From the IMG/VR virus record IMGVR_UViG_3300022890_000048, positions 1 through 41,998 of that record: a stretch of 41,998 nucleotides of DNA, one strand, 5' to 3'. Source of the stretch: a virus. The notes below the pieces were generated by a model, which was given only the letters and a program-made list of their open reading frames with translations, was not told where the DNA came from and did not search any database. Shown here in pieces: positions 3,571 through 41,998 of the stretch; position 1 is the first letter of the stretch; each line of letters starts with the position of its first letter. Position numbers and translations under genes: made by a program.

Positions 3571-3668
3571 ACTTTGCGAAGTGCGGGATTTATAACCCCA
3601 AGAGTCCCTGGTCTAATGCGTAAGTCCAGTTGAGCAGATTTATCTTCTCAAACTACTGGAGCCAGGGA
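3571..3668 (+). ncRNA. Structured leader RNA candidate upstream of ParB-methyltransferase
   Basis: The 114-base gap holds several nested inverted repeats. ACTT-tgcg-AAGT lies at 3571-3582. TCCCTGG (3605-3611) pairs with CCAGGGA (3662-3668). Inside that, TCCAG pairs with CTGGA, and TTGAG (3630-3634) pairs with CTCAA (3647-3651) around a 12-base loop. A TATA-like ATTTATAA at 3588-3595 would start transcription near 3617, inside the outer stem, so the full fold would need an upstream start. It could be a leader that regulates the next gene or a DNA-binding site; it is not a recognisable tRNA or riboswitch. Confidence 0.4.
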
Positions 3669-3680
3669 ACCTTTATTAAA

Positions 3681-5057
3681 ATGGAAAAATTAGAAATAGA
3701 GTACATACCAATAGCGGAGATAGTTCCTTACAAGAACAATCCGAGAAAGAATGACAAAGCAGTAGAAGTAGTAGCAAAAAGTATTAAAGAATTCGGTTTC
3801 AAGAACCCAATAATTCTGGATAAGAAGAACGAAATAGTTTGTGGACATACAAGATTAAAAGCAATACCTAAAGCAAAGGAGCTAATATTAGAAGAACTAA
3901 AGGTGCAAAGGATAGAATTAGATAACGCAAAAATCAACAAGCCCGAAAGAATAGAAGATATTAATAACGTTATTGAACAATTAGAAAATAATCTTGCCGG
4001 AATACAAGAAGTTCCTGTAATTTGGGTTGACGATCTAACAGATGAACAAATAAAAGCATTCCGAATCATGGACAACAAATCAATAGAGTACGCGAGATGG
4101 GACTTTGACTTATTAAAAGAAGAGTTCGAATCAATGACCAACTTAGAATTCACCGGATTCACAGAAGCAGAAAGAGAGAAGATCTTAAATCCAGATGACA
4201 AGTTCAGCGTAGGAGACAAAGAACCCAAATACAAAATAGAAACCGGAGAAGTCTGGCAATTAGGCAAACATCGATTAATATGCGGAGACTCAACACGGGA
4301 AGATACATACCTTAAATTAATACCAAGCGGCACCGACATCCAATGCGTATTCACAGACCCACCATATGGAGTAAGTTATTCAGGAACAAACAACCCAAAC
4401 GGAAGAGAGTGGAAAGTGATTGAAGGAGACGATTTAAGGGGAGACAAACTATACGATTTAATAAAGGAATCCTTCACACACATTAATGCCCACTTAGTAA
4501 AGAACGGAGCAATCTATGTCTTCCATGCATCGTCTAATCAAATCATATTCGAGAAGGCATTAAACACAGCCAACTTCCAAGTAAAACAGCAATTAATATG
4601 GCACAAGCACCATATCCTTGGACACTCACACTATCACTGGTGTCATGAGCCTTTATTTTATGGATCAAGAATAAACGAGAACCCAGACTTTTTCGGCACA
4701 AGATGCAATAAGACCACATTAACAGAGATAGATCCAGATGCAATGGACCTGGAACAATTAAGGAAGTTCGTCAAGAAGATCAAGAAACATAGCACAGTAT
4801 GGGAGATCAAGAAGGATTCAACCAAAGATTACATCCATCCAACTCAGAAACCAACCAAATTGGCGATTAGGGCCATCGTGAACAGTTCAAAGGTAGGTGA
4901 TGGAGTATTAGACCCCTTCGCAGGGAGTGGAAGCACGTTGATGGCCTGTGAGGAAAAAGGGAGAGTTTGTTATACGATTGAATTAGATCCGGTATTTTGT
5001 AGTCATATTATAGAAAGATGGGAAAAACTAACAGGAAAAACCGCAGAAAAGATGTAA
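3681..5057 (+). CDS. ParB-like nuclease domain fused to DNA methyltransferase
   Basis: A 458-residue protein. Residues 1-100 are a ParB/Srx-like domain with the VCGHTRLKA (GHxR) motif. The rest is an N6/N4 DNA methyltransferase with catalytic FTDPPYG near residue 225 and the AdoMet-binding DPFAGSGST near residue 410, the motif IV-before-I order of the beta class. This fusion is common in tailed phages and usually protects viral DNA from host restriction or marks it. I choose ATG 3681 because it starts directly at the ParB domain; an upstream TTG would place the start inside the RNA hairpin. The 3' end overlaps the terminase gene by 40 bases. Confidence 0.9.
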   Translation: MEKLEIEYIPIAEIVPYKNNPRKNDKAVEVVAKSIKEFGFKNPIILDKKNEIVCGHTRLKAIPKAKELILEELKVQRIELDNAKINKPERIEDINNVIEQLENNLAGIQEVPVIWVDDLTDEQIKAFRIMDNKSIEYARWDFDLLKEEFESMTNLEFTGFTEAEREKILNPDDKFSVGDKEPKYKIETGEVWQLGKHRLICGDSTREDTYLKLIPSGTDIQCVFTDPPYGVSYSGTNNPNGREWKVIEGDDLRGDKLYDLIKESFTHINAHLVKNGAIYVFHASSNQIIFEKALNTANFQVKQQLIWHKHHILGHSHYHWCHEPLFYGSRINENPDFFGTRCNKTTLTEIDPDAMDLEQLRKFVKKIKKHSTVWEIKKDSTKDYIHPTQKPTKLAIRAIVNSSKVGDGVLDPFAGSGSTLMACEEKGRVCYTIELDPVFCSHIIERWEKLTGKTAEKM

Positions 5058-5398
5058 CGAAATGTAACAGATTAAAGCCCAAACAGAAGGCAATGATTGA
5101 ATCAATGAAAGCAACGCTTGGGATTGTAACTGCATCTTGTAAGCAAGTAGGAATAGAAAGAGTCACACATTATCGGTGGCTGAAAGAGAATCCAGAGTAT
5201 GCTAAGGGAATAAATGAATCTGAACTTGATTTAAAAGACTTTGCAGAAGGGGCCCTCCTCCAATTATTACATGAAAAGAACCCCATGATTGTCTGGAACG
5301 TCAACAAAACCCGAAACAAAGACAGAGGATACATGGAAAAACAGGAAATAGAACATACTGGTCAGGCATTTAAATTAATAATAGAGAATCCGGACTAA
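5018..5398 (+). CDS. Terminase small subunit (putative)
   Basis: A 126-residue basic protein with an N-terminal helix-turn-helix (ASCKQVGIERVTHYRWLKEN), typical of phBC6A51-type small terminases. This is followed by a helical region and a C-terminal tail. The small terminase recognises the packaging site and hands DNA to the large subunit. It lies two genes upstream of the large terminase, separated by a methyltransferase. The start is inside the end of the previous gene; its basic N-terminus MGKTNRKNRRK fits a DNA-binding tail. Confidence 0.75.
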   Translation: MGKTNRKNRRKDVTKCNRLKPKQKAMIESMKATLGIVTASCKQVGIERVTHYRWLKENPEYAKGINESELDLKDFAEGALLQLLHEKNPMIVWNVNKTRNKDRGYMEKQEIEHTGQAFKLIIENPD

Positions 5399-6615
5399 TG
5401 AATAAAATAATACAAGGTGAATGTTTAGAAGAACTAAAGAAACTTCCAGAGAAATCAGTAAATATGTGCATGACTTCTCCACTCTACTGGGCATTAAGGG
5501 ATTATGGAACTGCAACTTGGGAAGGTGGAGATGATAATTGTGACCATAAAGAAGCTAAAGAGAAGTCAAGATATGATTATGATTTAAGTAAAGCACAAAC
5601 AGGAACACATAAGGGTGCTAAGGAAGGAACAGACCAAGCAAAATGGAAAGACAAATGCCCTACTTGTGGGGCTATTAAAGTAGATAAACAATTAGGATTA
5701 GAACCAACCTTTGACGAATATATAAATAAGTTGTGTGATATTTTTGATGAAGTAAAAAGAGTTCTAAGAGATGATGGAACTTGTTGGGTTAATTTGGGTG
5801 ATACTTATTTTGGTTCTGGAAAGGGTGCTGGTGGAGACCCAGCTAAATGTAAAGAGTCTTACACTATGCCGACAGATTGGAAAAGACCAAGTAGAGATGA
5901 ATTCACAAAGGCAGGGATAAAAAAGAATTGTTTAATTTGTGGCAAAGAGTTTTTAGGAAAAGAGAATTCACAATTTTGTTCTAAAAAATGTCTAAACAAA
6001 AAAGGGAATGATTTTAGAAGCCAAAATAGACAACTACCAGATAAAACATTAACCTTGATTCCAATGCGTTTCGCAATAGAAATGGTTAATCGTGGTTGGA
6101 TATTGAGAAACACAATCATCTGGCATAAACCAAATTGTATGCCGAGTTCTGTTAAGGATAGATTCACAGTAGACTTTGAATACCTTTTTTTCTTTAGTAA
6201 GAAAAAGAAATACTATTTTGAAACCCAAAGAGAACCACACCAAACAGAAGAATGGAAAACAAGAAATATGAATAAAAGAAAAAAGAACGATAGTAATCCC
6301 CAATATGGAAAACATTCTCACGGACCTCAAGATTATCATCCTCAAGGACGTAACAAAAGAACAACATGGGCTATCTGCCCTAAGCCATTCAAGGAAGCAC
6401 ACTTTGCAGTTTATCCAGAAGAGCTTTGTGAAACTCCAATTAAAGCTGGGTGTCCTGAAGGTGGAATAGTATTAGACCCATTCGCAGGAGCAGGAACTAC
6501 TTGCTTGGTGGCGTTGAAACAAAACAAGAAGTTTTTAGGGATTGAGTTGAATCCAGAATACATTGAGATAATAAATAAAAGATTAAAACCTCATTTAGAA
6601 CAGGGGAAGCTATGA
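5398..6615 (+). CDS. DNA methyltransferase with altered motif IV (TSPLYW) and zinc-finger insert
   Basis: A 405-residue beta-class DNA methyltransferase of the TSPPYW type. Motif IV near residue 26 reads TSPLYW instead of TSPPYW; one C-to-T change in the codon (CTC from CCC) accounts for it. Motif I (DPFAGAGTTC) is intact near residue 360. Two Cys clusters are present: CPTCG near residue 93, and a CLICGKEF to FCSKKC treble-clef-like finger near residues 178-198, which looks inserted. The protein may therefore be catalytically weakened or have altered base specificity. It is wedged between the two terminase genes and overlaps both. Confidence 0.85.
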   Translation: MNKIIQGECLEELKKLPEKSVNMCMTSPLYWALRDYGTATWEGGDDNCDHKEAKEKSRYDYDLSKAQTGTHKGAKEGTDQAKWKDKCPTCGAIKVDKQLGLEPTFDEYINKLCDIFDEVKRVLRDDGTCWVNLGDTYFGSGKGAGGDPAKCKESYTMPTDWKRPSRDEFTKAGIKKNCLICGKEFLGKENSQFCSKKCLNKKGNDFRSQNRQLPDKTLTLIPMRFAIEMVNRGWILRNTIIWHKPNCMPSSVKDRFTVDFEYLFFFSKKKKYYFETQREPHQTEEWKTRNMNKRKKNDSNPQYGKHSHGPQDYHPQGRNKRTTWAICPKPFKEAHFAVYPEELCETPIKAGCPEGGIVLDPFAGAGTTCLVALKQNKKFLGIELNPEYIEIINKRLKPHLEQGKL

Positions 6616-8004: not shown

Positions 8005-9966
8005 ATGACAAAGGGCTATATTGCACTTTCAAAGGCACAAAAGCATATCTCTATTACTGAACAGTTTAAAGGAGAGACCAACGATGAAGAAGTAAGATTC
8101 CCCAAGTCACTGGGGGTTAAGCATCCGGTGGATTTCAAAGTAATGGAAGCATGGTACAATGGACATCCATTCGTTAAGGGAGCAATTGATAAACACGTTG
8201 ATTCAATCGTAGCAGATTTCACAGTTGATTCAAAAGATGACAAAAGTCTAACATTAATTGAGAGCTTTATTGCTAACACTAATTTTTTAGTATTCTTAAG
8301 ACAATGGATTTTAAATGCCCTTATCTCTGGAAACGGATTTATGGAATTAGATCTGGAAAATGAAAAAGTGAGAGTATTGGACAGTAAAACAATGTACGTA
8401 AAGCGTAATAGTAAGGGGAAAGTAATTGGTTATAATCAATATGTTGGAGAGATCAAGTCGTTTAAGAAAGACAGAAAAGAGATGATCCCATTCGGACCAG
8501 GAAATATTGCACACTTCCCAGTAAATACCTTAGCCGATAATGCCTATGGGTTGGGATTAATCTGGCCAAATAGAAATGCATTGGACATGCTGGCTCAAAA
8601 TGAATTGGACATGCATAAGTTAGTAAGCAGAAAAGCCGGAGCACCGTACCACGTAAAGATTGGACAACCAGGAGAGGCAGCACAGAAAGAAGACATAGAT
8701 GACTTCAATTCAAAGTTAGAATATTTAAATAGTAGAACAGAATGGGTAACAGACGGAAATGTAGAGATCAAAGGAGTAGACTTCGGAGATTTAGGGAAGA
8801 ACTTCGCGACATCATTAGAACATGATATCCAAGAATTAGTATTTGGTTTTCAAGTGCCAGCAACATTAATGGGTGTGATGAATGTGCCTGAAGGATTAGC
8901 TAAAGTACAGTTAGAAGCATTCCAAAGAAGGATTAAAAGTTTACAGGAGTCAGTAGAAAAAGTAATAGAGGAAAAGATATTCAAACAAATCTTAAATGCA
9001 AATAAGTTAGATACAGATATAGAAATCACTTGGAACCTCCCCGGTGAAACAGAGATCAACAATCGTATAGAGAGATTAACTAATTTATTGGGCGGAACAG
9101 TAGCTATTTCAGAGAACATGAAGAGAATGATAGAAAAAGAACTTGCTCAAGTATTAGACTTTCAAGATGCAGAGAAATATCTCAATGAACCAGACGAAGA
9201 GTTGAAAGGATTAGATGATGACCAAGCTAAAACAGATCCAATAGTTGATCCACTAAAACCAAAGCCAGAGAATCCAGAACGTAAGAAAGAAGAAAATATC
9301 AAACAACCAGAAGTTCCAGGGGAAAAACCTGCAGCCAAAGAAGAACATGAACACGTATTGACTGAAACAGGAATGTGCGGATGTGGATGCGGGCAACAAT
9401 TAACAGAAGAAGAGGTAGCAGAATATACGGTGGAAGAATGGTGCCAGTTACAAGAGGTGGCTGGATTTAATTATGTAGATTATTTAGTAAACATCCTCGG
9501 AAAGGCAGATACAGAGAAGTTCACAGACTTATTGGCCACAACAGAGCAACAATTAGATCTTGGATTATTAAGTCAAACAGATATAGAAAAACTAAGAGTA
9601 GTATTAAAGGATGGCTTCCAAAAGAACAAAACAATCAAACAAATAGAGTCAGACATAGGGAAGTTCATTAATCTTAAAGATAGATACGTAATTAATGAGC
9701 ATGGTGATAAGGTGCTTAAAGCAAGAGCAGAATCAAGGGCAAACAATATAGCAAGAACAGAAACTGTCAGATTAGCGAATAAGGGATTACTAAAGACATA
9801 CAATGAATCAGGGATTAAAAAAGTTAGATTTCTTGCTGCACTATCAGAGAGAACTTGCCCGCAATGTAGTGCATTAAATGGTGAAGTCTTTGAAATAAAT
9901 GAGGCAGAAGATTTAATCCCAGTGCATTCGTCTTGTAGATGTACTTGGATGTCTGTTCTTGATTGA
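8005..9966 (+). CDS. Portal protein fused to MuF-like head protein
   Basis: A 653-residue protein. Residues about 30-430 are an HK97/SPP1-like portal (WYNGHPFVKGAIDKHVDSIV; VFGFQVPATLMGV). Then a Pro/Lys/Glu linker and a small Cys cluster (CGCGCGQQ near residue 454) lead to a MuF domain: ARTETVRLANKGLL, and near the end a zinc-like site in SERTCPQCSALNGEVF with HSSCRC. The portal forms the DNA gate and connector, while MuF proteins are carried in the head and may be ejected. In most phages these are two genes; here they are one. Translation probably starts from a leaderless mRNA. Confidence 0.9.
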   Translation: MTKGYIALSKAQKHISITEQFKGETNDEEVRFPKSLGVKHPVDFKVMEAWYNGHPFVKGAIDKHVDSIVADFTVDSKDDKSLTLIESFIANTNFLVFLRQWILNALISGNGFMELDLENEKVRVLDSKTMYVKRNSKGKVIGYNQYVGEIKSFKKDRKEMIPFGPGNIAHFPVNTLADNAYGLGLIWPNRNALDMLAQNELDMHKLVSRKAGAPYHVKIGQPGEAAQKEDIDDFNSKLEYLNSRTEWVTDGNVEIKGVDFGDLGKNFATSLEHDIQELVFGFQVPATLMGVMNVPEGLAKVQLEAFQRRIKSLQESVEKVIEEKIFKQILNANKLDTDIEITWNLPGETEINNRIERLTNLLGGTVAISENMKRMIEKELAQVLDFQDAEKYLNEPDEELKGLDDDQAKTDPIVDPLKPKPENPERKKEENIKQPEVPGEKPAAKEEHEHVLTETGMCGCGCGQQLTEEEVAEYTVEEWCQLQEVAGFNYVDYLVNILGKADTEKFTDLLATTEQQLDLGLLSQTDIEKLRVVLKDGFQKNKTIKQIESDIGKFINLKDRYVINEHGDKVLKARAESRANNIARTETVRLANKGLLKTYNESGIKKVRFLAALSERTCPQCSALNGEVFEINEAEDLIPVHSSCRCTWMSVLD

Positions 9967-12877: not shown

Positions 12878-12898
12878 GCAAAATTGAGTAATTTAACC

Positions 12899-13858
12899 AT
12901 GGCTCTCGAAGAAAAAGAACTGGCTGTGAATAACATAGAACTTAAGTGGAACGAGCAGATAGTTGAATTTGATTCAAAAACCGAAGCATCTGAAGATTTC
13001 AAGATTAAAGGGATAGCAATAAACGAGACAACTACTTCTAATGGGCATAAATTTCTTTCAGAAGAATTAAGCAAATCAGCTGGAAGCCTAATGGGTGTAC
13101 CATTACTTAAAGATCATGAAAATAGAATAGAAAACATTGTTGGGAGAGTAACAAACGCATACTTTGACTCAATGCAAAATAATATTCAATTTGAAGCAAA
13201 GATCATGGATGTCAAAGTCCGAGAGATGATAAAAGATGGAAGGATTAATTCAGTAAGTGTTGGAGCATCAGTAAGTGAATTAGAAGAAACAGAAGAAGGG
13301 GAAATTATCCCAAGAGGAATCCAATTTAAAGAATTAAGTTTGGTGGCAGTTCCAGCAGATCAAGGGGCAACATTCAATGTGGCTTTAATGGAAGCATATA
13401 ACAAAGATAATCCAAAAGTTAAGGCAGAAGAATTAAGAAAAAATAAGGGCCTAACAAAAGCACAATCATTCTCATCTAATGAGAAACTTAAACAAATGAA
13501 AGGGGGAAAATTACAAATGACAGAAGACACACCAGAGGAAAAAGAACAACCTGAAGAAAAAGTCGAAGCACCAGCAGAAACTGCAGAGGAAACTAAGGAA
13601 GAATCGAAAGAAGAACCTAAAGAGGAACCAGCAGTTACAGAAGAGAACGTTAAGAACTGGGTTAAAGAGGCTATCAAAGAATCTGACGCCGACGAAGCGC
13701 CTAAAGAAGCACCAGCTGAATCTAAAGAGGAAGTTAAGGATGAAGTTAAGGATGAAGAAGACGAGGACGAAGAGGAAGTTGAGGAAGGTTTAAAGTTCGT
13801 ACAAGAATCCGGAAGTTTACGGGGTGGAGCTATCACTGTAGTGCGAAAACTTAGATAA
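12899..13858 (+). CDS. Prohead protease fused to acidic scaffold
   Basis: A 319-residue protein. Residues about 20-165 match the herpesvirus/HK97-type prohead serine protease fold, with candidate catalytic His73 in LLKDHENRI and Ser118/120 in INSVSVGAS. Residues about 200-300 are extremely rich in Glu, Lys and Pro, the composition of a scaffolding domain. The end (GSLRGGAITVVRKL) may be a capsid-binding or cleavage tail. The protease matures the prohead and removes the scaffold. It lies directly upstream of the decoration and capsid genes. Confidence 0.85.
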   Translation: MALEEKELAVNNIELKWNEQIVEFDSKTEASEDFKIKGIAINETTTSNGHKFLSEELSKSAGSLMGVPLLKDHENRIENIVGRVTNAYFDSMQNNIQFEAKIMDVKVREMIKDGRINSVSVGASVSELEETEEGEIIPRGIQFKELSLVAVPADQGATFNVALMEAYNKDNPKVKAEELRKNKGLTKAQSFSSNEKLKQMKGGKLQMTEDTPEEKEQPEEKVEAPAETAEETKEESKEEPKEEPAVTEENVKNWVKEAIKESDADEAPKEAPAESKEEVKDEVKDEEDEDEEEVEEGLKFVQESGSLRGGAITVVRKLR

Positions 13859-26639: not shown

Positions 26640-27458
26640 ATGGCAGAACTGTTTAGTCAATACGCGAGCGGGGTTCAATTAGCAGCAGGTGTGATAGCTG
26701 GAAGTACACTTGGGGTAAGTGGGCTCAATCCAATAATCGATAGACTCAATTCTATTTCTCCGAGTGATGATCTTGTAAGCGGTACTGCATTGACAGTTTA
26801 TGCCTCGGCAAGCAACCTTGGAGCACCAGTTGGAACTGTGGCATCATGGCTGAAAACATTAACCGGAACCCCAGCATTACCAGACAATTGGACAGAATGT
26901 GATGGTTCAGTAGTTAGCGACGGAGATTCGGTATATGATGGGGAGACACTTCCAGATTTAAATGGAGATAACCGATTTCTACGTGGAAGTTCAAGCTCCG
27001 GATCAACGGGCGGAGCAGCAACACATACACATACTGGTGGTAGTCATAGTCATAGTTTTAGTGATTCTTTTACAACTTCTTCAGATTCACATACCCATAC
27101 AGTTAGTGTTAGTGGATCAACAAGTTCAGCAGGAGCGCACAGTCATACATTAAGTGGGAATACTGGGGATTGTGACGACACACATGATTTTGTAACCAGT
27201 GTTAGTGGCCCCGGGGTTACAAGTGTTAATTCAGCAGGTGGGGCAGATAATTCCCACGCGCATCCACAAATAGGAAGTACAAGCACTTATTCCAATCACT
27301 ATCATACTTTCTCTGATACTGCAACAACAGGTTCAGACTCACATTCACACACAGGTTCGGTATCTGGAACAACAGGTGCGGGCGGAACAGGAACTACAAG
27401 TTCAGCGAGTACCCTTCCTCCTTACTATAGTGTAGTGTGGATCATACGAATTAAATAG
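26640..27458 (+). CDS. Tail-collar-type fibre with His-rich repeats
   Basis: A 272-residue protein. Residues 60-110 form a phage tail-collar domain (PALPDNWTECDGSVVSDG ... LPDLNGDNRFLRG). The rest contains many His-x-His units (THTHTGGSHSHS and similar) separated by Ser/Thr/Gly. In T4 gp37-like fibres, His-x-His pairs line up to bind metal ions in a narrow trimeric needle. It ends with LPPYYSVVWIIRIK, the normal ending of collar proteins. Confidence 0.85.
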   Translation: MAELFSQYASGVQLAAGVIAGSTLGVSGLNPIIDRLNSISPSDDLVSGTALTVYASASNLGAPVGTVASWLKTLTGTPALPDNWTECDGSVVSDGDSVYDGETLPDLNGDNRFLRGSSSSGSTGGAATHTHTGGSHSHSFSDSFTTSSDSHTHTVSVSGSTSSAGAHSHTLSGNTGDCDDTHDFVTSVSGPGVTSVNSAGGADNSHAHPQIGSTSTYSNHYHTFSDTATTGSDSHSHTGSVSGTTGAGGTGTTSSASTLPPYYSVVWIIRIK

Positions 27459-27463
27459 ACAAA

Positions 27464-27622
27464 ATGAAAAAATACAATTGGAAAATAACTGCTAAGAAGT
27501 TTGGAATTATTGCATTGGAAATCCTGGTAGCAGGGGTTCTTTCTTATGCGACAGACCATCCAGAATTTTTAGTAATCGTTCCATTAGCTGAAGCATTTAG
27601 AAATTGGATCAAGCACAGATGA
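27464..27622 (+). CDS. Small membrane protein, 52 aa, possible holin
   Basis: A basic N-terminus (MKKYNWKITAKKFG) is followed by a hydrophobic segment from residue 14 to 30 and a second weaker one (FLVIVPLAEAF). It overlaps the next gene by ATGA. Position after the fibre gene and before another small membrane protein is the usual site of lysis genes. No endolysin is visible, so the role is uncertain. Confidence 0.55.
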   Translation: MKKYNWKITAKKFGIIALEILVAGVLSYATDHPEFLVIVPLAEAFRNWIKHR

Positions 27623-27810
27623 AAGATGGGTGCTCTTACGGAAAAGTGACAAGACAAATAGTGACTGACATAAAAGATGATATTCAAAGCATAAAGGCAG
27701 ATCTTAAAGATGTTTCAAATCACTTTCATAATCGACTTCCGACTTGGGCGTCTGTGGTATTAACCCTTCTTGGGATCGCCCTCGGAGCATTATTATCTGC
27801 ACAGTTTTAG
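27619..27810 (+). CDS. Small membrane protein, 63 aa, XhlA-like topology
   Basis: The N-terminal 40 residues form an amphipathic helix (VTDIKDDIQSIKADLKDV). The last 20 are one hydrophobic segment (WASVVLTLLGIALGALL). This order matches hemolysin XhlA-type proteins that work with a holin. ATG 27619 is preferred to an upstream in-frame TTG because of the overlap with the previous stop. Confidence 0.6.
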   Translation: MKDGCSYGKVTRQIVTDIKDDIQSIKADLKDVSNHFHNRLPTWASVVLTLLGIALGALLSAQF

Positions 27811-32020: not shown

Positions 32021-32146
32021 ATGGAAGGAGTAACTCCAGAAGTCTGGAAGTGTGGTAAGTGTGGAAGAAAATTTTATGCACTGCGTGGATGCGATTGTGT
32101 AAGATTCCCAGAGATATACAAGAAAGATTCGGAGGATTTAGAATGA
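32021..32146 (+). CDS. Mini zinc-ribbon protein, 41 aa
   Basis: Contains WKCGKCGRKF and, after ten residues, CDC: a CxxC...CxC set that can bind one zinc. Joined by ATGA to the AbrB-like gene. One of several very short zinc proteins in this region. Confidence 0.55.
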   Translation: MEGVTPEVWKCGKCGRKFYALRGCDCVRFPEIYKKDSEDLE

Positions 32147-32304
32147 AACCAACAATAACAAGAACAAGAACTATTTATGAGGGAGATAAGATCAAGAAGC
32201 TAATAGCAATCAAGGTAGTCAAAAAGGCAGGCAACTCGGGGCACGTGATCCTACCAAAAGAACTAATTGGAAAAGAGGTAAAGATACAATATGATTTGCA
32301 ATAA
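32143..32304 (+). CDS. AbrB/SpoVT-like small DNA-binding protein, 53 aa
   Basis: The C-terminal part, VVKKAGNSGHVILPKELIGK, is a swapped-hairpin AbrB motif (K-x-G-N-S-x-x-V-x-x-P-K-E-L). These dimers act as transition-state regulators or antitoxins. The ATG at 32143 follows a GGAGG site and overlaps the zinc-ribbon stop; starts further upstream in this frame would lie in that other gene. Confidence 0.75.
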   Translation: MKPTITRTRTIYEGDKIKKLIAIKVVKKAGNSGHVILPKELIGKEVKIQYDLQ

Positions 32305-36000: not shown

Positions 36001-36210
36001 ATGAAGAAGTATCGCCTTAGAAAAATAGTGCAATCAAAGGACAGGACTTTATATGGGATAACATTCCCGCAAACCATTTCTGCATGTTTTACTGAGGGAA
36101 CATTATTCACATTTCAAATTTCTGGTGCTTGTGTCTTGTTAAAATCTGGATGTGATACACCAACTAAAAAAGAGGTAGATAATTTTGACTTGGAGTCAAT
36201 AAAAATATAA
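36001..36210 (+). CDS. Putative AbrB-like small protein, 69 aa
   Basis: The middle reads RTLYGITFPQTISACF then LFTFQISGACVLLKSG, which recalls archaeal AbrB-like hairpin proteins (G-I-T-x-P ... F-x-I-x-x-S-G). No other motif is visible. It is the first gene of the glycosylation operon and touches the next gene by one base, so it could be its local regulator. Moderate confidence in the fold only. Confidence 0.5.
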   Translation: MKKYRLRKIVQSKDRTLYGITFPQTISACFTEGTLFTFQISGACVLLKSGCDTPTKKEVDNFDLESIKI

Positions 36211-37475
36211 TGAAAAAAAAGATGGTGATAACGATCTTGTCGGATAGTCCTTTTATTACAACTGGATATTCAGACCAAGCGAAAAAGTTAACAAACTATT
36301 TAATAGAGTGCGGGCATGAAGTACATTGGTTAGCAAATGGTCATATTGGGAAAACAATAGATTATGCAAAGATGGAAGACGGAACAGAGATAAAGTGTAA
36401 AGTATATGGAAGATTAAATCATCAGTATTTCGCAGACATGATATCAGACCATCTAAAAAAGACTAACTCAGATATTTTTTTTATTATTTTAGACACATTT
36501 ATGTTACATGGGGATCCAAACAACCCAAACAATGGATGGTTTTTGAAGATAGATCACTCACCAGCTAAAGCAATCTTTTGGTATCCTTCAGATGGTGGTG
36601 GTGGAATGCCCAAAGGATGTGATTTAATATTAAAGAAGTGTGATCTTTCAATTGCTTATTCTAAATTTGCACAAAAACAAGTAAAAGATTATTATAATTT
36701 AGATACAGAATACATTCCATTAGGTACCGAACCAGAAAGGTTTTATAGACTTCCAGACGAACAAAGGAATGCAATAAGAGTCAAGTGGAACTTAGCGGAC
36801 AAATTTGTAGTTGGAGTAGTAGCAAGAAACCAACCGAGAAAGTTTCTGGACAGAACAATTAAGGCATTCAGATTTCTGGCAGACAAGGTACCCAATGCTG
36901 TTTTATTATTGCATACAGATCCAAACGACCAAGCAGCTCCCTGGAAAATGAGTAGTTTAATAAAAAGATATAATCTTGAGAATAGGGTTTTATTTACTGG
37001 AATGAATGCAATGAACTCTTTTGATTGGAACCAAATGAATGAAGTTTATAATGCGATGGATTGTTTCTTTTTAAGCACAAGTGGTGAAGGATGGGGCATC
37101 CCATTAGTAGAAGCAATGTCTTGTAAAGTACCAGTAGTCGCAACAAATTATACAACCATTCAAGAAATAGTAGTAGATAATAAATCTGGGTTCGGAGTTA
37201 AACTGGCGGGTGTAGAAGAGATGAACCAATTTGAAAAGGGAACAAAAGAGTATGACATCGAATCATCAAACGGAACATTAACCGGAAGTTGGGAAGTAGA
37301 AAGGGGCTTCTGTGATGTGCAAGACGCAGCAGAAAAGATGGCATACATAGCCAATAATCCTGAAAAAGCAAAAGAGATGGGAGAAAATGGCAGAAAAGCA
37401 GTGATTGAAAAATACAACCAGAAGATAGTAAATAAACAATGGGAAGAAACAATGCTCAAAGCATGCGGACAATAA
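36210..37475 (+). CDS. GT4-family glycosyltransferase
   Basis: A 421-residue GT-B enzyme. The N-terminal domain has FITTGYSDQAKKLTNYL, the glycine-loop that binds the acceptor. The linker segment is EYIPLGTEPERFY, and the donor site is STSGEGWGIPLVEAMSCKVP near residue 290 (EX7E motif). It moves a sugar from a nucleotide donor to a lipid, glycan or protein. Related in plan to the split enzyme at 41769-1393. First of several sugar-transfer genes. Confidence 0.85.
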   Translation: MKKKMVITILSDSPFITTGYSDQAKKLTNYLIECGHEVHWLANGHIGKTIDYAKMEDGTEIKCKVYGRLNHQYFADMISDHLKKTNSDIFFIILDTFMLHGDPNNPNNGWFLKIDHSPAKAIFWYPSDGGGGMPKGCDLILKKCDLSIAYSKFAQKQVKDYYNLDTEYIPLGTEPERFYRLPDEQRNAIRVKWNLADKFVVGVVARNQPRKFLDRTIKAFRFLADKVPNAVLLLHTDPNDQAAPWKMSSLIKRYNLENRVLFTGMNAMNSFDWNQMNEVYNAMDCFFLSTSGEGWGIPLVEAMSCKVPVVATNYTTIQEIVVDNKSGFGVKLAGVEEMNQFEKGTKEYDIESSNGTLTGSWEVERGFCDVQDAAEKMAYIANNPEKAKEMGENGRKAVIEKYNQKIVNKQWEETMLKACGQ

Positions 37476-37476
37476 T

Positions 37477-38733
37477 ATGGAAAAATTAGTAGTGGTAATA
37501 ATGGGGCAGAACTGTGAGAAGTTTATAGGTATGGCCCTGGATTCTGTTTCGGATGCAGACGAAATAATTTATTGTGATGGGGGAAGCACAGATGATACAC
37601 TGCACATAGTGGGTAATAATTTCGATCCAGATGACAAAACTATCAGTGGGGAGATAATAGAAAACAAGTATGATCAAGAAGATAAACAGATGAATGGAAA
37701 ACAAAGGAACTTTTATTTAGACCATTTAAAGAAGAAATATCCCGGTTGGTGGTGCTTGGCTATAGATGCAGACGAAGTAGTAGAAGACTTAACTAAGATT
37801 AAAGAGTTCATACAAAAAGCAGATCCAGAAAGATTATACAACCCAAAGATGAGGCATTTTATTGGAGACTTAGGACACGAAGATGCAACAGTGCCTGAAC
37901 ATTTTGTATATGGAAGATTATTTAAAATAAAGAGTGAATTGGAATATCCCTTGAGAGAACATTCAATAATAGTAATGGGAAAGAGAAGCGTAGATTATGT
38001 TAATGTCCGACCAACAACCATCTGGCACATGGCTTATTGCTCAGCATGTTGGGATTACAAAAAGAGATATAAAAACCACCTGGCAAAGTCAAAGATGCAT
38101 TCCCCGGAATTCTTAGATCATTGGTATAAAGACCATTTATTCGGACAGTACCCAAAAAGCCCAGTTAACCCATTGGATATCCCAGAAACAATATTGAAAG
38201 AATTTGAAATAGATAAGGATGAGTTTTATTTTCAAAATAGAGGATTAGAATTAAGGCATTTTCTTATGTTTAAGAATTGGTTTGATAAGTTTAATCCTAA
38301 GAGGGTGTTAGAATTTGGATGTGGATTTGGGCCATACGGAGTTGCAGCAACATATCTTGGATGCAAATACTCAGGAGTAGAAATAAGTAAGTATGCTACA
38401 TTAAAGAATCCGTTCTCATTGGATCTCATCAGGGGAGATATAACTAATGATTTGACACTCCCGGAATCTGACTTAGTCCTTGTGATAGATGTCCTGGAAC
38501 ATTTAGAGGAAGAAGAATTAAATAAAACATTGGGTAATATTGCTAAACACGGAAAGAACTATGTCTTTTCAATACCATATTTTGGTGATCCAAACCTTGA
38601 AGCAGATCCAACACATAAGATTAAACAGAAAAAAGAGTGGTGGGTAAAGAAACTTGAAAAGCATTTTAAAATAAAAGAAGTACCAAGTAATTGGTTGTTT
38701 AAAGAACAAATGTTGATAGGAGAGAAAAAATGA
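37477..38733 (+). CDS. GT2-like glycosyltransferase fused to class I methyltransferase
   Basis: A 418-residue two-domain protein. Residues 1-210 are GT-A/GT2-like: CDGGSTDDTLHIV near residue 28 and AIDADEVVEDL near residue 95 (DxD-like metal site). Residues about 260-418 are an AdoMet methyltransferase: VLEFGCGFGPYGVAATYLG (motif I), then LVIDVLEHLEEEEL (motif IV-type). It could add a sugar and then methylate the glycan. Overlaps the epimerase start by ATGA. Confidence 0.8.
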   Translation: MEKLVVVIMGQNCEKFIGMALDSVSDADEIIYCDGGSTDDTLHIVGNNFDPDDKTISGEIIENKYDQEDKQMNGKQRNFYLDHLKKKYPGWWCLAIDADEVVEDLTKIKEFIQKADPERLYNPKMRHFIGDLGHEDATVPEHFVYGRLFKIKSELEYPLREHSIIVMGKRSVDYVNVRPTTIWHMAYCSACWDYKKRYKNHLAKSKMHSPEFLDHWYKDHLFGQYPKSPVNPLDIPETILKEFEIDKDEFYFQNRGLELRHFLMFKNWFDKFNPKRVLEFGCGFGPYGVAATYLGCKYSGVEISKYATLKNPFSLDLIRGDITNDLTLPESDLVLVIDVLEHLEEEELNKTLGNIAKHGKNYVFSIPYFGDPNLEADPTHKIKQKKEWWVKKLEKHFKIKEVPSNWLFKEQMLIGEKK

Positions 38734-39539
38734 AAGTATTAATTACTGGAAGTCAAGGATTTGTAGGGCACAATCTATACAGAAGACTTGAGAAAATGGG
38801 ACTTAAGGTTTTTGGTGTGGATAAAGTAAATAACAAATATAAGCAGAACTTCAAAAAGATGGACTTAACAAAAGAAAAAATAAAAGAGAAGTTTGATTTG
38901 ATATTCCATCTCGCATCAGATGTCGGAGGAGCAAATTATATTAATGGAGACAATTACAAGTACGACATCTTATCAAACAACATGAAGATCGATTTAAACA
39001 TTGTAGAATATTGTAAAAAGAAAAAAGTGAACTTAGTTTATTTTTCAAGTTCATGTGCTACAGAAGGACAAAATACTTATGGAATTAGCAAGAATTTATC
39101 TGAAGAATTAATCTTGAATTCTGGAATAACCTTTTTAATAGTGCGTCCACAAAATATCTATGGTCCCGGAGATAGAAAAAGAGGAGTTAAAGAACAAGTT
39201 ATAATGGCTTTATTTAGAAAGATACTGCATGAAAAAGAAATAATTCTTTGGAATGGAAGATCTATGCGTAGTTTTATTCATGTGGAAGAGTTATTAGATA
39301 GAATCTTTGTTGCGTGTCAATACCCAAATCATATAGAGGAAATTGGTGGTGAATGGATAACAATAAGGAAACTTGCAGAAAAGATAATGAAAGTATGTTC
39401 TGAGAAAAAAAATGTTATTGATGAAAAAATATATGAAAAGAAGAAAAGATATTTGAATTTTAAAAAGACAGAAATTAAATTGATGGATGGATTAAAGGAG
39501 GTTTACGATGACTACATTAATAATGCCCACAAGAAATAA
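38730..39539 (+). CDS. NAD-dependent sugar epimerase/dehydratase (extended SDR)
   Basis: A 269-residue protein. The NAD-binding TGSQGFVGHNL lies at residues 6-16, the DLTKEKIKEKFDLIFHLAS region follows, and the catalytic Y-x-x-x-K (TYGISKNLSEEL) is near residue 117 after SSSCATEG. Such enzymes convert NDP-sugars (epimerase or dehydratase). It supplies the nearby transferases with a changed sugar donor. The 3' end overlaps the next gene by 32 bases. Confidence 0.85.
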   Translation: MKVLITGSQGFVGHNLYRRLEKMGLKVFGVDKVNNKYKQNFKKMDLTKEKIKEKFDLIFHLASDVGGANYINGDNYKYDILSNNMKIDLNIVEYCKKKKVNLVYFSSSCATEGQNTYGISKNLSEELILNSGITFLIVRPQNIYGPGDRKRGVKEQVIMALFRKILHEKEIILWNGRSMRSFIHVEELLDRIFVACQYPNHIEEIGGEWITIRKLAEKIMKVCSEKKNVIDEKIYEKKKRYLNFKKTEIKLMDGLKEVYDDYINNAHKK

Positions 39540-40152
39540 TAAAGAATCTTTCAGACAAGCAATGATGTCTATATTAGAAACAGTGGATGAAGAATACAAA
39601 TTGATAATAGTAGAATCAGAAAGCACAGATGGAACTGCACAATTGGCAGATAGCTATGCAAACAATCATGAACACATAGAGGTATACCATACAAAGAAAG
39701 CCGGATTAGTTAAAGCATTCAACTTCGGCATGAGAAAAGCCAAAGGGGATGTTTGTTTAATTCATGATGACGTGATCTTCCCAAGATTATATAAAAAGTG
39801 TTGGTTAAGAGAATTAAAGAAATTGAAAGGGCCAAATGTTGGAATAATAACCTGTGTAAATGGTGGGGGATTGAGCGGACCAGACTATTTAAACGGGCTT
39901 TATTGGGTTGGAACCTGGTGCATGTACATCCCAGAAGAAACAAGAAAAGAGATTGGAGTATTAGATGGAACATTTAAAGTAGGGGACGACATAGATTATT
40001 CGTATAGAGTTATCAATGCTGGAAAGAAGATAATCATTGCAGACTTTTCAGTAAATCATCACAGAACAGGATCCCATGTAGAAGATCAAGGAGACTTCCA
40101 CGAGTTAGTAGTCAAAATGGGAAATAAATTCAAGAAGAAACACAACCGATGA
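39508..40152 (+). CDS. GT2-family glycosyltransferase
   Basis: A 214-residue GT-A enzyme. The start MTTLIMPTRNNKESFRQAM is the usual GT2 opening; VESESTDGTAQLAD binds the nucleotide, GDVCLIHDDVIFP carries the metal-binding Asp pair near residue 87, and KVGDDIDYSYRV holds the catalytic ED-like site. ATG 39508 is chosen for a perfect AAGGAGG eight bases upstream. Compact, without membrane helices. Confidence 0.85.
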   Translation: MTTLIMPTRNNKESFRQAMMSILETVDEEYKLIIVESESTDGTAQLADSYANNHEHIEVYHTKKAGLVKAFNFGMRKAKGDVCLIHDDVIFPRLYKKCWLRELKKLKGPNVGIITCVNGGGLSGPDYLNGLYWVGTWCMYIPEETRKEIGVLDGTFKVGDDIDYSYRVINAGKKIIIADFSVNHHRTGSHVEDQGDFHELVVKMGNKFKKKHNR

Positions 40153-40994
40153 TATCAATAGACATAGCAACAAGAGATCGACCATGTGAACTGGCATTAT
40201 TACTGCAAAGTTTAAGAACCCAAACGCACCAAGAGTTCGATATTTTTATTTTGGATGACATGTCTGGAACTCCATTAAATAATTATCATTTCTTAAATAT
40301 GATTATCGCAAGAATGAAATTAGAAGGGCATAAAATTAGTGTAGAAAGAACAGAATACAATCATGGAGTAAGTAAAGCCAGACACGTATTAGCAGAAAAG
40401 TCAATGGATTATGAGTATATTTTAAGAGTAGATGATGATGTAATTCTTGCAAAGGATTATCTGGAAAGAATGTTAAAAGTAATAAAAGCAGGATATGATA
40501 TAGCAAGCGGAGTAACTCCGACAATGGGCCCGCAATTTATTAGAAACTCCAAGATGGTAGAAAAGGCAAACGAAGTATGTTTCGAGGGAGATAAAATAGT
40601 ATATGACGGTGACGACTGTGGAATAGAATATACAGATGACAAGATCGTACCAGCTGACCATTTCAGATCATGCGCACTCATCAAAAGGGAAGTGCATAAA
40701 CAAGTCAAGTATTGGCCAACAAGACTGACAAAGCACGGATATAGGGAAGAAACCCTCTTCAGTTTCAACGCGGTCATGAAAGGATTCAAGATTGGTGTTG
40801 ATTTGGGGGCAAATGCATGGCATTTGATGACCCCCTCTGGAGGAGAGAGATTCGCCGAGTCAAATCAGATGATCCAACAGAACCAAAAGATGTTAAACGA
40901 ATTTATCGCTGAAAATAGGGCCGAACTAAAAGCCAATTTCAAAGGAAAGGTAAGCAAACTTAAACTAAAGAAGGAAACAAACTTAGTAAAATGA
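40149..40994 (+). CDS. GT2-type glycosyltransferase
   Basis: A 281-residue GT-A enzyme. Motifs: IATRDRPCELALLLQSL at the start, FILDDMSGT, EYILRVDDDVILAKDYL with a triple Asp near residue 98, and HGYREETLFSFNAVMKG near residue 200 (donor/acceptor ED motif). The C-terminus is basic and coiled. Coupled by ATGA to the ClpP-like gene. Confidence 0.85.
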   Translation: MISIDIATRDRPCELALLLQSLRTQTHQEFDIFILDDMSGTPLNNYHFLNMIIARMKLEGHKISVERTEYNHGVSKARHVLAEKSMDYEYILRVDDDVILAKDYLERMLKVIKAGYDIASGVTPTMGPQFIRNSKMVEKANEVCFEGDKIVYDGDDCGIEYTDDKIVPADHFRSCALIKREVHKQVKYWPTRLTKHGYREETLFSFNAVMKGFKIGVDLGANAWHLMTPSGGERFAESNQMIQQNQKMLNEFIAENRAELKANFKGKVSKLKLKKETNLVK

Positions 40995-41557
40995 TTGGGC
41001 AAGGAGAGGAGAAGAAAGAACCAAAACCGAGCAAGACGACGATAACAAAGACTCCGATTGGGTACAAATACTTTGTCGTTTTTCCGAACACCATAGATGA
41101 CGAAGCCCCGGAATTTTTAGATCTGGTAAACCTCTTGAACAAGGCGTCAGAGAAAGATGAGGTGGAGCTTGTTCTAAATTGTCGCGGGGGTTCTGTTGAT
41201 ACCACAGTATTAATAGTAAATACTATAAGAGAATCAAAGGCAACCGTGACCACGATTTTAAATGGGGGGGCGTATTCTGGTGGTTCGTGCATCTTTCTTG
41301 CTGGGGATAAAAAGATAGTCAAACCAAATTCCTCTTTCATGGCCCATTACTATAGTTCTGAGGTTAGGGGGAAAGGAACAGATTTGGAATCTCGGGCAGA
41401 CTTTTGCAAGAAGCAGATGGGGGCTTTTTATAGGGACATCTACAAGGGGTTCTTATCGGATAAAGAGATCGACGACGTTTTATCTGGAAAGGATATCTGG
41501 CTGCTTGGGACGCAAGTAGAAAGGAGATTAAAAAGGGGAAGGGGCAAAAAACAATGA
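40991..41557 (+). CDS. ClpP-like serine protease
   Basis: A 188-residue protein with the ClpP/crotonase fold: VELVLNCRGGSVDTTVLIVN (oxyanion region), NGGAYSGGSCIFLAGD with the candidate catalytic Ser near residue 95, and SSFMAHYYSS with the catalytic His near residue 118. The end is basic. No ClpX-type ATPase is nearby. In tailed phages ClpP-like enzymes are often prohead proteases, but here one already exists at 12899, and this gene sits in the sugar operon. It may process surface or envelope proteins. Confidence 0.8.
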   Translation: MIGQGEEKKEPKPSKTTITKTPIGYKYFVVFPNTIDDEAPEFLDLVNLLNKASEKDEVELVLNCRGGSVDTTVLIVNTIRESKATVTTILNGGAYSGGSCIFLAGDKKIVKPNSSFMAHYYSSEVRGKGTDLESRADFCKKQMGAFYRDIYKGFLSDKEIDDVLSGKDIWLLGTQVERRLKRGRGKKQ

Positions 41558-41772
41558 AAAAAGCAAGCGAAACACATAAGAAACCAGACTTTAATCAGAA
41601 GGCAATAAAGGACTTTGCAGACTTGGATGTAGTATCTGGCGGAGGATATCTGTGTATGCTAAAGAAGAATAATGGAGAAGTGCACTTATTCACAAACATA
41701 AATTCAAAGGAGATGATAGATAGTTGCGAGAAAGAGTTTTCAGATATCATCAAGAAGTGGGGGAAACGATGA
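41554..41772 (+). CDS. Hypothetical protein, 72 aa
   Basis: Basic start (MKKASETHKKPDFNQKAIKD), then a beta-rich part (GGGYLCMLKKNNGEVHLFTN) and a helical end. No named family. Overlaps the ClpP-like gene and the split glycosyltransferase gene by ATGA, so it belongs to the same operon. Confidence 0.5.
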   Translation: MKKASETHKKPDFNQKAIKDFADLDVVSGGGYLCMLKKNNGEVHLFTNINSKEMIDSCEKEFSDIIKKWGKR

Positions 41773-41998
41773 TTAATATAATCGGAACAATTTGGGGCAC
41801 ACAAGGATATGCAATCCATTCAAGAAACCTTGCTCGGGCAATAGATAATGAATGTGGGGCTAAGTTAACAACAGACCTAATACAAGGATGGGAAACTCAA
41901 GTCAACGATCAAGAGTTAAAAATGTTAAAGGAAAATGGAGAATATGACACCAATATCATAATCGCACAGCCAAATGCCTGGAGAATGTATACTGAAAG
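41769..41998 (+). CDS. Split GT4 glycosyltransferase, N-terminal half (5' part of gene)
   Basis: Starts MINIIGTIWGTQGYAIHSRN, where the Gly loop (GTQGYAIHSRNLARA) is the acceptor-side glycine motif of GT-B enzymes. The frame continues past the window end into bases 1-271 with no break, giving 139 residues. Coupled by ATGA to the previous gene. See the entry at 1-271 for the break by the HNH gene. Confidence 0.8.
   Translation, partial: MINIIGTIWGTQGYAIHSRNLARAIDNECGAKLTTDLIQGWETQVNDQELKMLKENGEYDTNIIIAQPNAWRMYTE
41918..41998. repeat. 81-bp terminal direct repeat, right copy
   Basis: Exact copy of bases 1-81; I compared them base by base across both ends. The unique genome is thus 41,917 bp. 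Either a true circle or a circularly permuted, headful-packaged genome would give this. Confidence 0.95.

Follow-up and report, generated by a model that had tools for sequence, protein, structure and literature searches.

The window analyzed here, i.e., the complete 41,998-nt record IMGVR_UViG_3300022890_000048 of an uncultured tailed virus, carries a glycan operon in which the gene of the fifth glycosyltransferase, GT4d, appears to be interrupted by a free-standing HNH homing-type gene. We consider it rather probable that this enzyme is produced as two polypeptides that pair.

The last 81 bases of the window are identical to its first 81 bases. The record is therefore circular or terminally redundant with a unit of 41,917 bp, and position 41998 is a mere contig end. 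ORFs of the region 36001–41998 were called and then scanned with Pfam and PHROGs, with best E-values per gene between 1e-31 and about 1e-6, i.e., beyond chance. The island genes overlap or abut head to tail on a single strand (plus). A small AbrB-like ORF (36001–36210) is followed by the GT-B type glycosyltransferase GT4a (36210–37475; Glycos_transf_1, E 4.9e-26; phrog_2170, 3.6e-42; relatives at 43–60%) and a GT2-methyltransferase fusion (37477–38733; Glycos_transf_2, 1.1e-6; Methyltransf_23, 8.3e-7), which is also present in relatives. Next come an NAD-dependent nucleotide-sugar epimerase/dehydratase (38730–39539; Pfam Epimerase, 1e-31; phrog_540, 2.8e-49) and the glycosyltransferases GT2b (39508–40152; Glycos_transf_2, 2.4e-17) and GT2c (40149–40994; Glycos_transf_2, 2.2e-14). 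A ClpP-like peptidase (40991–41557; CLP_protease, 7.7e-17; phrog_1827, 9.6e-46) and a small ORF without assigned function (41554–41772; weak phrog_16565) precede GT4d. Pfam and PHROGs thus confirmed the gene list of the initial annotation, i.e., GT4a, GT2-methyltransferase, epimerase, GT2b, GT2c, ClpP-like peptidase and a fifth glycosyltransferase. The single glycan operon that it had proposed is genuine, but its end had been wrongly placed at 41998: given the 81-base repeat, GT4d continues over the junction to position 1393, and the island spans about 7.3 kb of the 41.9-kb unit. Five sugar-transfer genes had also been counted correctly, whereas it had been missed that the fifth is a split gene.

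The first part of the GT4d N-terminal half (41769–41998, plus strand) runs over the contig end, with its last 81 bases equal to bases 1–81, and the remainder (1–271) ends in the interdomain linker, as read from the joined translation of 41769–41917 and 1–271. An HNH homing-type endonuclease ORF follows at 268–681, and the C-terminal half at 674–1393 has its own start codon, the EX7E motif and a Glycos_transf_1 match (4.5e-15) with conserved columns. The stop of the N-terminal half and the start of the nuclease overlap as ATGA, and the nuclease stop overlaps the ATG of the C-terminal half. Pfam matches of the nuclease ORF to HNH_2 (0.0013) and HNH (0.0011) are both just below the curated cut-offs; its 48% identical homologue in the related contig locus L100 (L-numbers denote loci of related viral contigs) matches HNH_2 at 1.5e-6. 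In the intact GT4d of L013, the linker reads ITEEEATKLLEKKREEKMSNKEKLKQLIEKK, which can be aligned to the last residues of the window's N-terminal half, LSEEECKILLEKLK, plus the first residues of the window's C-terminal half, MNNKEKLKELIENK. From this match we conclude that the nuclease probably entered a natural GT4d linker without evident loss of residues. The same L013 gene contains at nt ~413–428 the in-frame sequence GGAGGAGAAAATG, an RBS-like site before the codon at which the window's C-terminal half starts; it could be the mark of a rejoined split gene or chance.

The split in the window rests on one assembly, with L008, L038 and L100 as separate examples, and its two junction strings were not found in other viral contigs. 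L001/L003 and L045/L046 are near-identical strains of the window from other assemblies. Contigs of such strains stop at 41470 or start at 741 and 746, beside the split region, and these breaks could reflect population variants.

To collect relatives, we scanned viral contigs with TerL, GT4a, the ClpP-like protein and an alignment of GT4d, and then searched the resulting records with TerL. They form a clade of uncultured tailed viruses with TerL 44–80% identical, most of them represented by incomplete contigs. When the window proteins were mapped onto 22 records, a conserved order emerged, i.e., orf89, AbrB-like ORF, GT4a, GT2-methyltransferase, variable genes, GT2b, GT2c and GT4d. In 15 of these 22 records (one counted across contig ends) the island runs directly into o3057, TerS, TerL, portal, protease and MCP; the other seven, in which it lies elsewhere in the structural map, form a deeper branch. 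Genes scattered or absent in close relatives would have pointed to random cargo. Since the order of the glycosyltransferases instead recurs, mostly just upstream of the packaging genes, gene comparison argues that the glycan operon is core equipment of this clade. The GT2-methyltransferase fusion is among the most widely kept members. In the relatives, the genes of the variable middle include epimerases, radical-SAM/B12 enzymes, an FkbM-type methyltransferase and a UDP-glucose/GDP-mannose dehydrogenase-type gene. The radical-SAM enzymes, some with a B12-binding domain (L006:6496–9654, L100:3120–8180), suggest unusual sugar or methyl chemistry. Two DNA methylases adjoin the terminase genes of the window (3630–5057 and 5398–6615), one of them with a ParB-like N-terminal domain; the methylase at 3630–5057 is common to several relatives. 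Among annotated phage records, none reached at least 60% identity to TerL, portal, MCP, GT4a, GT2-methyltransferase, GT4d or the ClpP-like protein.

Three GT4d copies are split, i.e., those of the window, L008 and L038/L101, and 31 other loci have the gene in one piece. The inserted ORF of L008 (214 aa, 8789–9433) has a weak DUF559 match, and that of L038/L101 (207 aa) matches DUF559 at 1e-10 and Vsr marginally. In a maximum-likelihood tree every split copy sits among intact copies and three changes are needed; the placement is well supported for the window and L038 and weakly supported for L008. The tree therefore indicates that GT4d was split three times independently, by two nuclease types. 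In the closest relative of the window, L037/L100 (TerL 80%), GT4d is intact, and it is GT2b that is split by the HNH gene 48% identical to that of the window (L100:8177–10054), with the C-terminal piece of GT2b joined to an FkbM-type methyltransferase. Related nuclease genes lay in or beside the island for nine of twelve copies including the window, a count biased by queries that were themselves taken from the island. What looked like a split baseplate-hub gene in L039 turned out to be a laminin-G-like insertion plus a frameshift and involved no nuclease.

To place the splits in the fold, we modeled the intact GT4d of L037 with AlphaFold (31 sequences; pLDDT 94.9). The model shows a GT-B fold, and among PDB structures it comes closest to GT-B enzymes, e.g., GlgM, MshA and a chlorella-virus glycosyltransferase (3oy2). 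In this model, the splits of the window and L008 fall after the helix 112–128 and before the strand at 133, and that of L038 in a loop at about 140–156. Every GT4d split is thus predicted to separate one Rossmann domain from the other, at a point where production in two pieces would most likely be tolerated. In L021, L026 and L027, GT4d is intact and has a long low-complexity linker, in frame, at the same hinge that is broken in L038; these linkers may be tolerant loops or scars left by insertions since lost. Assignment of GT4d to the GT4/GT-B enzymes is based on the two Rossmann domains of the intact-homologue model with its PDB matches, on Pfam and on EX7E, which in the window's C-terminal half reads E-AFNIPCL-E. 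Accordingly, GT4d resembles the retaining glycosyltransferases MshA, GlgM and 3oy2 in its fold and in having EX7E in the C-terminal domain. It differs from them in sequence (only 15–19% identity) and, in the window, in being encoded as two chains.

An insertion into an enzyme gene might simply knock it out, so that the halves would be remnants and the virus would do without this sugar step. Such loss seems to occur in the clade: in L043 (3230–3780) GT4d breaks off shortly past the domain hinge and unrelated sequence follows; this is possibly a decayed or recombined and probably a dead copy. Moreover, a sister strain of the window differs in the C-terminal half by four codons, with three amino-acid changes. 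However, among 62 columns conserved to at least 90%, the split copies keep 60 (window), 58 (L008) and 61 (L038), compared with 57–62 in intact copies, and the EX7E motif is among the residues kept by all three independently split copies. The split halves also diverge from reference copies no more than intact copies do among themselves. Both halves remain open reading frames that can be translated, with overlaps or RBS-like sites; in L008 and L038, the start of the C-terminal half follows a GGAGG or GGAGAG. A scan for internal SD-start pairs was uninformative. As the conserved residues are retained at the level of intact copies, the split halves appear not to be decayed and still to be constrained, and we regard a knockout as unlikely.

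Still less credible is that the nuclease resides in a self-splicing intron or between the halves of a split intein, with GT4d restored to one piece after splicing. Homing endonucleases are common in introns and inteins, and Rfam could miss a ribozyme of a new class. However, a search for a group I intron around the HNH ORF found no ribozyme core: Rfam gave no match in 1–2200 even at E ≤ 1 and none in the whole window, and it gave no intron in L008, L038 or L100. Matches to miRNA families at the start of L008 were spurious and due to a contig-end palindrome. The insert consists almost wholly of the nuclease ORF, which overlaps its neighbors at both ends and leaves no space for a group I core. 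Each GT4d half has its own stop or start, and the short tails of the halves correspond to the natural L013 linker and not to an intein.

We therefore return to the two-piece enzyme. No membrane segments were found in any of the island proteins, which hence likely act in the cytoplasm. There, soluble enzymes would build a probably methylated glycan, with which the GT2-methyltransferase fusion is in line; the acceptor would most likely be the virion or the host surface. The structural proteins showed no excess of N-glycosylation sequons, so there was no sequon sign of virion N-glycosylation. With PADLOC, a search for a defence role yielded only a weak mad2 match, which fell on the methyltransferase domain, and this role was rejected. 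Insertion of a free-standing HNH homing-type gene into the linker between the two Rossmann domains would have given the nuclease its stop/start overlap and left the C-terminal domain with a start codon of its own. GT4d would then be made as two polypeptides that must pair for function. From the conservation of both halves and from the precedents of Aeh1 nrdA/mobE and phage 25 gene 43 we infer that they may form an active enzyme.

During co-infection, the nuclease presumably cuts GT4d alleles that are uninterrupted and thereby spreads, and it may carry along neighboring glycan genes via co-conversion; homing activity and co-conversion are both proposed here by inference. A footprint of co-conversion was sought and rejected: L013 and the window share 87% DNA identity over the first 15 codons of the C-terminal half compared with 64% overall, but in other parts of the gene 91% is reached by other pairs. 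As a broader and tentative idea, which we hold to be possible and not yet probable, glycosyltransferases of this clade would naturally work as two pieces, and the nucleases responsible for the splits would swap glycan-gene alleles among co-infecting viruses. Homing would then, beside host selection, shape the variety of viral surface glycans.

The ClpP-like peptidase had been noted initially for its position in the island and for lacking a partner ATPase. The latter stands, as no AAA_2 match was found in the window record. Ser96 and His119 are invariant in three aligned proteins and both align with solved ClpP, and the triad Asp was assigned by eye, beyond the solved-structure alignment. As to the presence of such genes in islands elsewhere, one relative (G016/L088) has a ClpP-like gene inside the island, adjoining GT2c and followed by a small ORF, but it is the only one with a CLP_protease match among 30 related records (many of them fragments), and the gene is not a regular member. 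That the peptidase functions within the glycan system, e.g., by processing a glycosylated surface protein, would agree with its location beside GT2c in both viruses and its kept catalytic Ser and His, and is nevertheless improbable in view of the 29 related records with otherwise similar islands in which it was not found, the 1,792 phage records with ClpP-like genes and the separate prohead protease of the window (12884–13858). In one inspected record from this set, the gene lies beside nucleotide-metabolism genes. The window protein belongs to the same family as the phage ClpP-like peptidases of phrog_1827 and, to our knowledge, these commonly have no AAA+ partner either. It differs from them by its location inside a glycosyltransferase operon, and we best see it as sporadic accessory cargo.

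Two further proposals of the initial annotation fared less well. The AbrB-like regulator at the head of the operon is weakly supported: the position of the ORF is conserved in at least 11 aligned records and its AlphaFold model has the beta-beta-alpha-beta-beta order of AbrB, but no Pfam or PHROG family matched and the mean pLDDT was only 63. A link to a DGR was not supported, as no RVT_1 reverse transcriptase was found in the record. The near-identical L003 differs from the window almost exclusively in the tail-fibre gene or shortly behind it, at two short clusters (26910–26973 and 27554–27636) of substitutions and small indels. Since they are not adenine-biased, these differences point to recombination rather than a DGR.

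As to the host, a TerL profile run on species genomes matched MAG contigs of Patescibacteria (best 51–54%) and Bacteroidota (up to 50%), but this gave no host assignment, as none of the matches came with the MCP or the glycosyltransferase island of the clade. Nor did the clade MCP turn up in 380 genomes from the same phylum as a Paceibacterota MAG. The closest matches of portal and MCP come from haloarchaeal tailed viruses and one Bacillus phage, and reach only about 25%. A DUF2080 protein (window 32059–32304) and a protein group including an archaeal Hjc-type resolvase match (L062:1323–1658) give sequence hints of an archaeal host.

In T4-like phages, homing endonucleases are known to have split the genes of a few enzymes of DNA metabolism. 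In the present clade, repeated splitting appears to affect a glycosyltransferase of a virus glycan operon, every time between domains, and in an entire clade of uncultured tailed viruses that seems to have a glycan pathway as core equipment. In the open-access literature searched we found no earlier description of a split glycosyltransferase of this kind. The closest precedent is nrdA-a/mobE/nrdA-b of Aeromonas phage Aeh1, where a free-standing endonuclease gene splits a core gene without intron or intein; T4 gene 60/mobA/39 and phage 25 gene 43A/43B are further cases (PMC2988022). Like Aeh1 nrdA, GT4d consists of two ORFs with start/stop overlaps, has intact homologues in relatives and keeps its conserved residues. 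Several features of the Aeh1 type are found together in GT4d, i.e., an endonuclease ORF between the halves, 31 intact homologues, no intron or intein, and constrained halves. In contrast to the Aeh1 type, the broken gene encodes a glycosyltransferase and belongs to a glycan operon, the break lies between two domains, and a single gene family was split at least three times, by nucleases of two types (HNH and DUF559/Vsr-like).

In 2009, Dassa et al. reportedly described fractured genes that combine split inteins with homing endonucleases of a Vsr-like (EDxHD) type. They share with GT4d a gene broken by a nuclease gene, and the nuclease of L038 has DUF559/Vsr-type matches. They differ in that the GT4d halves contain no intein sequence and their tails are natural linker.

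If the GT4d halves work together, they would provide natural split GT-B enzymes for study and use. They would also allow a direct test of whether homing endonucleases drive the exchange of surface-glycan genes, as raised for Haloferax glycosylation islands, where free-standing homing endonucleases were proposed to move island parts by gene conversion (PMC5867893). Both settings have homing-type genes amid glycosylation genes. In Haloferax, however, these are LAGLIDADG genes of cellular genomes and split no glycosyltransferase, whereas here viral HNH and DUF559/Vsr-like genes break the glycosyltransferase genes themselves.
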